A stretch of DNA of 64,000 nucleotides, from NCBI RefSeq assembly GCF_013415905.1, contig NZ_CP058909.1:3410001-3474000 (forward strand), given 5' to 3'. Below, piece by piece: positions 30,172 through 34,488 of the stretch. Position numbers and translations under genes: made by a program. This stretch comes from Halosimplex pelagicum (GTDB taxonomy: Archaea > Halobacteriota > Halobacteria > Halobacteriales > Haloarculaceae). Below the pieces are notes generated by a model, which did no database searches, was not told where the DNA came from, and saw only the letters and a program-made list of their open reading frames with translations. Position 1 is the first letter of the stretch. Each line of letters starts with the position of its first letter.

Positions 30172-33459
<3,288 letters not shown>

Positions 33460-33539: not shown

Positions 33540-33840
33540 TCGTGCTCAATGCAGGTGACGGCTGTTGCATTTGGGGGTAGCGGTGCGGCTGGCGCGTGCT
33601 GTCGCGACTCTCGTGTCGCGACAGCATCGCGCGAGGGATGAGAAGCGCAGCCTGCGAGCATCGCAAGAGGCTGGGGAGGTGTGAGGCCGTCTGCGGTTGC
33701 TGTGCGGTGCTGTATGGTCCTGGTGGACTGAAAGGGCGAGGTGCGCTCGCGTCCATCTTAGTCGCCTGAGCGGGCACTATCCGCGCGGGCCGTGCGGAGA
33801 GCGCGGATATCCCGGTCAGCGGCCGCGAGCGCGCCGAGGG
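33540..33840. repeat. Structured intergenic element, probable haloarchaeal dispersed repeat
   Basis: Non-coding stretch of about 300 bases with several hairpins. It has a perfect 12-base stem with a six-base loop at 33597-33626 (arms TGCTGTCGCGAC and GTCGCGACAGCA). A short GCGAG/CTCGC hairpin lies at about 33736-33750. A nine-base stem at 33778-33809 (TATCCGCGC and GCGCGGATA) has a 14-base loop. Strings such as GCGAGGGATGAG, GGCTGGGGAGG and GGACTGAAAGGGCGAGG resemble intergenic repeats I recall from other haloarchaeal genomes, but that is not verified here. It could be a mobile-element remnant or a structured RNA. Confidence 0.5.
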
Positions 33841-33991
33841 CTTTCAACGCTTGCCGTCGAGTGCGGTTACTCTCGCACGACTTCGTTTCACGATACGATG
33901 AACAGAAACAACCGATACACGAGCACTCCGAACCGAGCGTCATCGAACTCCCGACCGGACACCTTTCCGTTCGGACCACCAACCGGTTCGC
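33841..33991. other. Gene-poor spacer before the small membrane protein
   Basis: About 150 bases with lower GC than the surroundings, including CGTTTCACGATACGATGAAC. No convincing ORF, tRNA or repeat is seen. It may contain the promoter for the small gene starting at 33992. Confidence 0.3.
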
Positions 33992-34138
33992 ATGGCCTTC
34001 CGAACCACGCTCGGCTGGTCGTTGATCTCATCGGGTATCGTCACGCTCCTGCTCGGCGTCCTCCCCGGCGGCGACCTGATGTGGGGGCTCATCCTCCTCG
34101 TGGTCGGCGTCGCGACGCTGCTGTACCGGCAGACCTGA
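33992..34138 (+). CDS. Small two-TM membrane protein
   Basis: ORF of 48 residues that begins MAFRTTLGWSL and ends LLYRQT. Two hydrophobic segments (about 7-24 and 29-44) are separated by a PGGDLMWG turn. The type, MAF... with two short helices, is common among very small haloarchaeal membrane proteins. The codon bias is GC3-rich like the neighbours. It is convergent with the SMR gene, with stop codons 23 bases apart. Function unknown; too short for homology-based assignment. Confidence 0.55.
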   Translation: MAFRTTLGWSLISSGIVTLLLGVLPGGDLMWGLILLVVGVATLLYRQT

Positions 34139-34161: not shown

Positions 34162-34488
34162 TCAGGACGCGCCGCTCGCGGTGAGGTTCAGCCCGACGAT
34201 ACCGACGACGATGAGGCCGACGAACGCGACGCGGGCGGGGCTCAGCGGTTCGTCGAAGAGGACGATCCCCAGCGCTGCAGTGCCCACCGCGCCGATCCCG
34301 GTCCAGACGGCGTAGGCGGTGCCGACCGGCAGGTGCTCGACGGCCTTCGCCAGGAGGACGACGCTGATCAGCATCGCGACGCCGGTCGCCGCGGTCGGGA
34401 CCGGCCGGCTGAGCCCCTCGGAGTACTCCAGACCGATCGCCCAGGCGATCTCGAACAGGCCGGCGACGAAGAGGAGATACCACGCCAT
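34162..34488 (-). CDS. SMR family efflux protein, guanidinium exporter (SugE/Gdx)-like
   Basis: Four-helix small multidrug resistance protein of 108 residues, probably working as a dual-topology dimer driven by protons. The essential glutamate is E13 in AGLFEIAWAIGLEYS. The Gdx/SugE-like pattern WAIGLEYSEG and GTAYAVWTGIGAVGTA near 58-73 favours the guanidinium-exporter branch rather than the EmrE/Qac branch. A GC-rich hairpin ends two bases before the start, which could restrain translation. It is divergent from the CBS gene. Substrate assignment is inference from subfamily motifs. Confidence 0.88.
   Translation of the reverse strand: MAWYLLFVAGLFEIAWAIGLEYSEGLSRPVPTAATGVAMLISVVLLAKAVEHLPVGTAYAVWTGIGAVGTAALGIVLFDEPLSPARVAFVGLIVVGIVGLNLTASGAS

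Follow-up and report, generated by a model that had tools for sequence, protein, structure and literature searches.

The window, the 64,000-nucleotide stretch of Halosimplex pelagicum DNA analyzed here (G000:C1:3410001-3474000; genome size 5.20 Mb), carries a structured non-coding element whose upstream neighbor is carB (carbamoyl-phosphate synthase large subunit by NCBIfam), with its stop at 33459. After the element and a conserved frame of short length comes, on the opposite strand, an SMR/SugE-type transporter gene (34162-34488). The short frame between them (48 codons, MAFRTTLGWSL...LLYRQT, 33992-34138, plus strand) recurs beside carB in the sister genomes G001, G002, and G004, and an NCBIfam search with it returned no match. 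A preliminary description, made from the letters of the window, had placed an intergenic element without an open reading frame at 33540-33840 and had pointed to two hairpins and two distinctive strings. The 12-bp perfect hairpin is real (TGCTGTCGCGAC/GTCGCGACAGCA, 33597-33626), the hairpin at 33778-33809 is present and forms the tip of a longer stem-loop (33761-33823), and the strings are located at 33631-33642 (GCGAGGGATGAG) and 33725-33741 (GGACTGAAAGGGCGAGG). A home-made codon-usage caller likewise calls no gene in the element, and the long open frames that cross it are judged mechanical. Homology to other copies runs past the limits first proposed, from about 33542 to about 33940. As RNA, 33540-33850 folds with -167.9 kcal/mol (z = -3.83), and none of 100 dinucleotide shuffles folds as well. 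The features of this copy, in window coordinates, are the following:

33542-33555, plus strand: 5' boundary word GTGCTCAATGCAGG, common to part of the copies; G002 and G003 have a similar word at their carB site
33591-33688, plus strand: module A, made up of P1, P2, P3, and GGCTGGGGAGG, conserved across the class
33594-33632, plus strand: helix P1 (GCGYG / CRYGC) enclosing hairpin P2, which is the 12-bp hairpin 33597-33626
33637-33671, plus strand: hairpin P3, of the form GAG-N-A-N-CGCA ... GAG-N-A-N-CGCA, in which the N pairs covary
33669-33679, plus strand: conserved strand GGYTGGGGAGG, which closes module A
33689-33724, plus strand: variable G/T-rich linker between A and B
33725-33846, plus strand: module B, compared across 89 distinct copies
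33761-33823, plus strand: inner stem-loop of module B, containing the hairpin 33778-33809
33859-33940, plus strand: 3' tail GAGTGCGGT..AACAGAAACAACC, common to part of the Halosimplex copies

The order in module A is P1 around P2, then GAGGGAY, P3, and GGYTGGGGAGG; in the carB-side copy, a two-base shift gives P1 an alternative pairing register in which it can stack on the 12-bp stem. Module B consists of an outer helix (TGAAAG/CTTTCA), GG/GG and CGAG/CGAG internal loops, an 11-bp helix, and the inner stem-loop. In Halosimplex, module A is mostly followed by the G/T-rich linker and B, while in other genera it often has other tails. Among the matches listed for Haloarcula, most cover B alone, some of them as inverted neighbors. 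Some copies (L017, L019, L106) carry tandem repeats of the 3' strand of B, with a period of about 57-63 bases.

Further hairpins accompany the modules. The hairpin repeat (G)AACCGGCGCC..GGCGCCGGATGCT often lies directly upstream of the 5' boundary (own copies L003, L004, L005, L012, L015, L018, L028, and others; also L099). Extra hairpins of the GGAGAGCTTGCTCTCC type precede module B in L061, L101, L115, and L125 and occur within the P2 loop of L138 and L236, the latter being the carB site of G002. Stems with GAGC..GCGA steps, readable as paired G.A mismatches alternating with G-C pairs, replace ordinary helices in P3 or in the inner stem of B (L043, L147, L192, and others). Facing pairs of module A with inverted tails between them are found in Natrinema and Halorussus (L127, L141, L179, L182).

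The carB-side stretch is one of about 80 copies in its own genome. The module-A pattern is found 82 times there (39 on the plus and 43 on the minus strand; the reversed control gives 0), and the word GGACTGAAAG has 93 occurrences vs. 3 for its reversal. A blastn search with 500 bases gives at least 57 own-genome matches at E<=1e-3, with 40 of 221 candidates scored. The suggestion of a dispersed repeat is borne out by these searches, and the likeness to intergenic strings of other haloarchaea, to which the same description had pointed, extends to most of the class. Of 59 genomes, 36 match (own included), with 7 of 7 from the same genus. A module-A covariance model built from 58 sequences matches 245 of 391 genomes of the class (own included) and 54 of 86 genera; this search scored no more than 9 candidates in each genome, so that copy numbers saturate, and its fast filters may miss weak matches. 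In a phylum-wide draw, 30 of 294 genomes match and all 30 belong to the own genome, family, or order, the 264 misses not being split by order. A DNA pattern scan of named genomes gives at least 113 stretches, and the 80 titles among the matches listed are all of haloarchaea. Seven plasmid records match the A/B query and four match the Natrinema query. The exact module pattern has no occurrence in viral contigs, and blastn against phages gives no match. None of the Rfam 15 covariance models reaches its gathering score in the window or matches the element at E<=1 in 8 loci, and the literature searched (subscription journals mostly and supplements lying outside its scope) holds no account of it. 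The repeat is real, class-wide, and structurally constrained, and fits no known family tried.

The structural constraint is most evident when copies are compared pair by pair. In alignment A1, scored against a hand-written structure, 93.7% of cells are paired vs. 80.9% in shuffled alignments and 10-53% when the structure is slid, and 106 cells carry a double change vs. 32.8 in shuffles; the number of pairs changed on both sides, 9, shows no excess over shuffles (8.4). P1 contributes 348 cells to this alignment, all of them standard, with 47 G-U and 0 A-C, counted in the register that covariation supports. In this register P1 requires one G-U in 49 of 73 own copies; with P1 shifted by two, 38 of these could pair without it. 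P3 takes the form GAG-N1-A-N3-CGCA...GAG-N1'-A-N3'-CG in 76 of 225 module A copies examined. Its N1-N3' and N3-N1' positions are each paired in 75 of these 76 (one G-U each) and include all four Watson-Crick types; independent columns would give 30.7 and 30.4 of 76, a comparison that is not a probability, the copies being related. The G, A, and C positions of P3 that look unpaired are kept while the N pairs covary. In the 89 distinct copies of module B there are 3065 Watson-Crick, 111 G-U, 21 A-C, 138 other, and 47 gap cells; one pair is GC in 65 copies and CG in 20, and a GC/CG step is swapped for G.A/A.G in 13-14 copies. The plus strand folds better than the minus strand in 174 of 174 module A copies. 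Insofar as comparison of copies can do so, these results demonstrate selection for a fixed folded architecture of the plus strand. The folding data fix the strand, and the frequent G-U favors RNA as the probable folding molecule over single-stranded DNA. Base-pair covariation is strong and G-U is in excess on the plus strand, in keeping with the conserved RNA family that the preliminary description had envisaged.

The same counts bear on the idea that pairing is a by-product at the DNA level, in which template switching at quasi-palindromes perfects hairpins without selection. In its favor, some arms are perfect palindromes (TTCGCGAC..GTCGCGAA), and hairpins are exchanged whole. However, template switching is blind to strand, yet G-U exceeds A-C, and it leaves the kept G, A, and C positions of P3 unaccounted for. 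It is already hard to reconcile with the P1 counts and the P3 covariation and is considered highly improbable.

Evidence of constraint comes also from Haloarcula, where the family includes a low-copy case. Nine Haloarcula genomes carry A and B at one site. In L268 its neighbors are a cobalt-precorrin-5A hydrolase gene (cbiG) and a cbiF-like methyltransferase gene (243 bits, just below the curated cut-off of 259.65), and the two genes run antisense to the element. At this site the spacer to cbiG has, by eye, diverged, while the conserved strands of A and B are kept and their stems are changed in compensation. This pattern speaks for retention of the copy by selection, as judged from its sequence. 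Retention adjoining cbiG does not establish a role in cobalamin synthesis.

P1, which tolerates G-U and lacks A-C, the covariation, and the single conserved Haloarcula site would also be expected of a multicopy family of small RNAs, each transcribed independently. No promoter-like signal accompanies the copies: a TATA-like word stands upstream of 0 of 72 own copies and of a fraction of 0.11 of 110 others (0.07 in the reverse-strand control), in a test that is weak because it marks only 5 of 35 gene starts in the window. Upstream of module A, the sequences of most copies from other genera appear unrelated to one another, and no Rfam family matches, which also counts against independent small RNAs; this explanation is rated as rather unlikely.

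The placement of the copies is strictly intergenic by the home-made caller, with 0 of 73 own and 0 of 123 other copies inside genes. Relative to the upstream and downstream gene, the 73 own copies are oriented same/same in 23 cases, opposite/same in 19, same/opposite in 17, and opposite/opposite in 14. This near-random orientation to neighboring genes in the own genome rules out a host 3'-UTR or terminator, and a replication-strand pattern is ruled out by the lack of orientation runs along the chromosome. In other genera, among 111 copies with both neighbors called, divergent sites are fewer (14) than convergent (34) and co-directional ones (33 and 30).

Comparison between Halosimplex species separates the history of the sites from that of the sequences that occupy them. 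The description of the surroundings of the carB-side copy as a stable region holds only in part: this site is empty in two of five inspectable sister genomes (G001, G004), while G002 has a very different A+B copy, G003 has the 5' word only, and G005 has another gene. A wider sample comprised 74 loci from six other Halosimplex genomes (best matches, hence non-random), of which 7 without the module-A pattern were dropped, leaving 67. Eighteen of these share both flanks with an own copy, at a mean flank identity of 87.9%. All 18 pairs have the same orientation, P3 is identical in 1, and P2 in 0; module A is 0.751 identical to its counterpart vs. 0.719 to other own copies, a slight excess (p 0.09). 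Another 19 share one flank (87.5%), again all in the same orientation, with P3 and P2 identical in none and with module A identities of 0.701 vs. 0.715 (p 0.40). Under stricter criteria, the 67 divide into 16 with both flanks at one own copy (all 16 oriented alike), 14 with one flank (13 oriented alike and 1 oppositely), 29 with none, and 8 whose flanks fall at two different own copies. As far as flanks can tell, about half of the sister-species copies examined occupy the same site as an own copy, with its orientation kept, and the P2 and P3 arms, which are drawn from a small pool, nearly always differ at these shared sites. Between 29 and 30 of the 67 are without an own counterpart, and therefore gain and loss also occur; G006, for instance, lacks the copy present in the own genome at 589.7 kb.

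Copies whose two flanks lead to different places are informative. In L329, L334, L335, and L347, the upstream flank is that of one own copy and the downstream flank that of another, both correctly oriented, which is the arrangement expected after a crossover between copies. L357, L359, L380, and L393 have ambiguous two-copy flanks, the own copies lying close together there. An earlier pairing scored one of 11 pairs (L357/L362) as opposite; the own locus has two module A copies, the near one has the same orientation, and the other site is empty in G006. Separately, the flanks of L347 and L359 (both G006), set against own copies at 4.506 and 4.66 Mb, look close to reciprocal, as if the ends of an inversion or translocation fell within two element copies.

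Traces of exchange are also found within genomes. The own carB-side and mutS-side copies (the latter beside a gene that is MutS by NCBIfam) are 96.6% identical over 388 bp. In G002 the copies at the same two places have a 163-nt tract in common with 1 mismatch, an unusual inserted hairpin included, and are of a type that differs from the own pair; crossover and conversion are indistinguishable at the G002 mutS side because that copy is the junction L335. Among 72 own copies, the P2 and P3 types occur in 17 of 24 combinations. Recombination between copies explains best both the carB/mutS tracts and these combinations. A homogenization test on mean module-A identity finds no consistent excess within genomes over between genomes, and one P3 ending (AAGA or AAGC) is biased by species: of 31 own copies with a given P3 form, 28 have it, vs. 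6 of 38 sister copies. Because flanks and orientation are shared, module A is hardly closer to its counterpart than to other copies, and junction copies exist, the copies appear to stay in place and to trade hairpins by recombination. Excerpts of two reports describe efficient gene conversion between chromosome copies in the polyploid Haloferax volcanii (PMC8223754, PMC11276520).

The gains and losses raise a different possibility, namely a non-autonomous mobile element (PATE-, REP-, or MITE-like), mobilized by a transposase acting in trans that recognizes a structure in single-stranded DNA. The carB site, empty in G001 and G004 and occupied in the own genome and G002, the missing 589.7 kb copy of G006, and the sister copies without an own counterpart would all follow from such mobility; the plus-strand bias fits transposition of single-stranded DNA, and the PATEs of Haloquadratum are, in the part of their description available, comparably abundant, heterogeneous, and without inverted ends (PMC3119063). 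Against it, the orientation is constant in the 18 two-flank pairs, viral contigs give no exact-pattern match and phages no blastn match, and a Y1 transposase is found in 21 of 33 element-rich genomes and is absent from 12, which rules out Y1-dependent spread. Spread by reverse transcription, as a retroelement or group II intron derivative, is likewise ruled out, as reverse transcriptase (PF00078) is found in 0 of the 33. The element does not represent IS605 termini, since no module-A motif lies within 1.5 kb of any of 24 own-genome TnpA/TnpB hits; four GGGGCTTTC-type words found in these stretches are judged unrelated. The two largest module-A-free gaps of the own genome also speak against mobility of this kind in that they hold 18 of 22 TnpB hits, some of these hits being fragments of one gene. 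Mobility of this kind is judged a minority possibility.

The gaps themselves (G000:C1 1.03-1.50 and 2.01-2.70 Mb, 22% of the genome), free of module A and rich in TnpB, suggest acquired islands. The ends of the element are not exact: the empty site in G006 has no clear target duplication, with about 50 unrelated bases standing there, and by eye the own copies have no clear terminal inverted ends of the kind that mark MITEs.

Known repeat systems share some of these properties. PATEs, palindrome-associated transposable elements, are haloarchaeal (Haloquadratum walsbyi), comprise hundreds of short, heterogeneous, non-coding palindromic repeats, and encode no transposase, according to the portion of the source available (PMC3119063). 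The element here is similarly too short for a transposase, and no gene is called in it; the extra GGAGAGCTTGCTCTCC-type hairpins inserted into it resemble the SMR-A small repeats that the same portion describes as entering PATE palindromes (PMC3119063). However, PATE ends match IS605-type transposons in that account, whereas here none of the 24 TnpA/TnpB hits is flanked by module A, and many Halosimplex element sites are common to several species. The bacterial REP/BIME sequences and their RAYT partners, as excerpts of the reports present them (PMC2817692, PMC3733652), resemble the element in being intergenic, abundant, and based on hairpins, and its modules, too, occur as inverted neighbors. 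They differ in size and build, module A being about 100 nt long with several helices and a REP a palindrome of 20-40 bp (one that bears a GTAG or CGTC tag), and a Y1 partner is not obligatory here. BOX elements have a modular make-up, like the element here. Compared by description only, and from part of the source (PMC3049150), those of Streptococcus pneumoniae are also dispersed small intergenic repeats. Unlike them, the element here is conserved across an archaeal class.

The reading to which we give somewhat more than even credence is that the carB-side stretch belongs to a haloarchaea-wide, dispersed, modular non-coding family whose arms are exchanged in place and whose folded plus strand would dock a putative host factor. 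Its modules would be separable, with A followed by B in the carB-side copy. Ectopic recombination, by gene conversion and occasional crossover, would exchange arms between copies, presumably helped by the conversion-prone, polyploid haloarchaeal chromosome, so that each copy could be renewed without having to move. Less certain is the nature of the folded strand, which is likelier to be RNA from passing transcription than single-stranded DNA, and at which a factor conserved in haloarchaea, whose target would be the chromosome or RNA at large, may dock; regulation of the adjacent gene by the strand is considered improbable. A more far-reaching proposal, offered tentatively, is that the copies constitute class-wide exchangeable hairpin cassettes, that is, fixed intergenic docking sites at which a conserved haloarchaeal factor binds the folded strand, with the arms actively exchanged between sites through recombination promoted by the fold.

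The usual view of abundant structured repeats is that they are mobile DNA in decay. In this family, both site and orientation are in many cases inherited, with the occupying sequence exchanged and folding preserved. For polyploid archaea, the copies provide a natural record of how distant loci recombine, and the proposed docking predicts a binding factor common to most haloarchaea. As the cbiF-cbiG copy is present in several Haloarcula species, in which module A is rare, the function of the element would be testable there by a single deletion.
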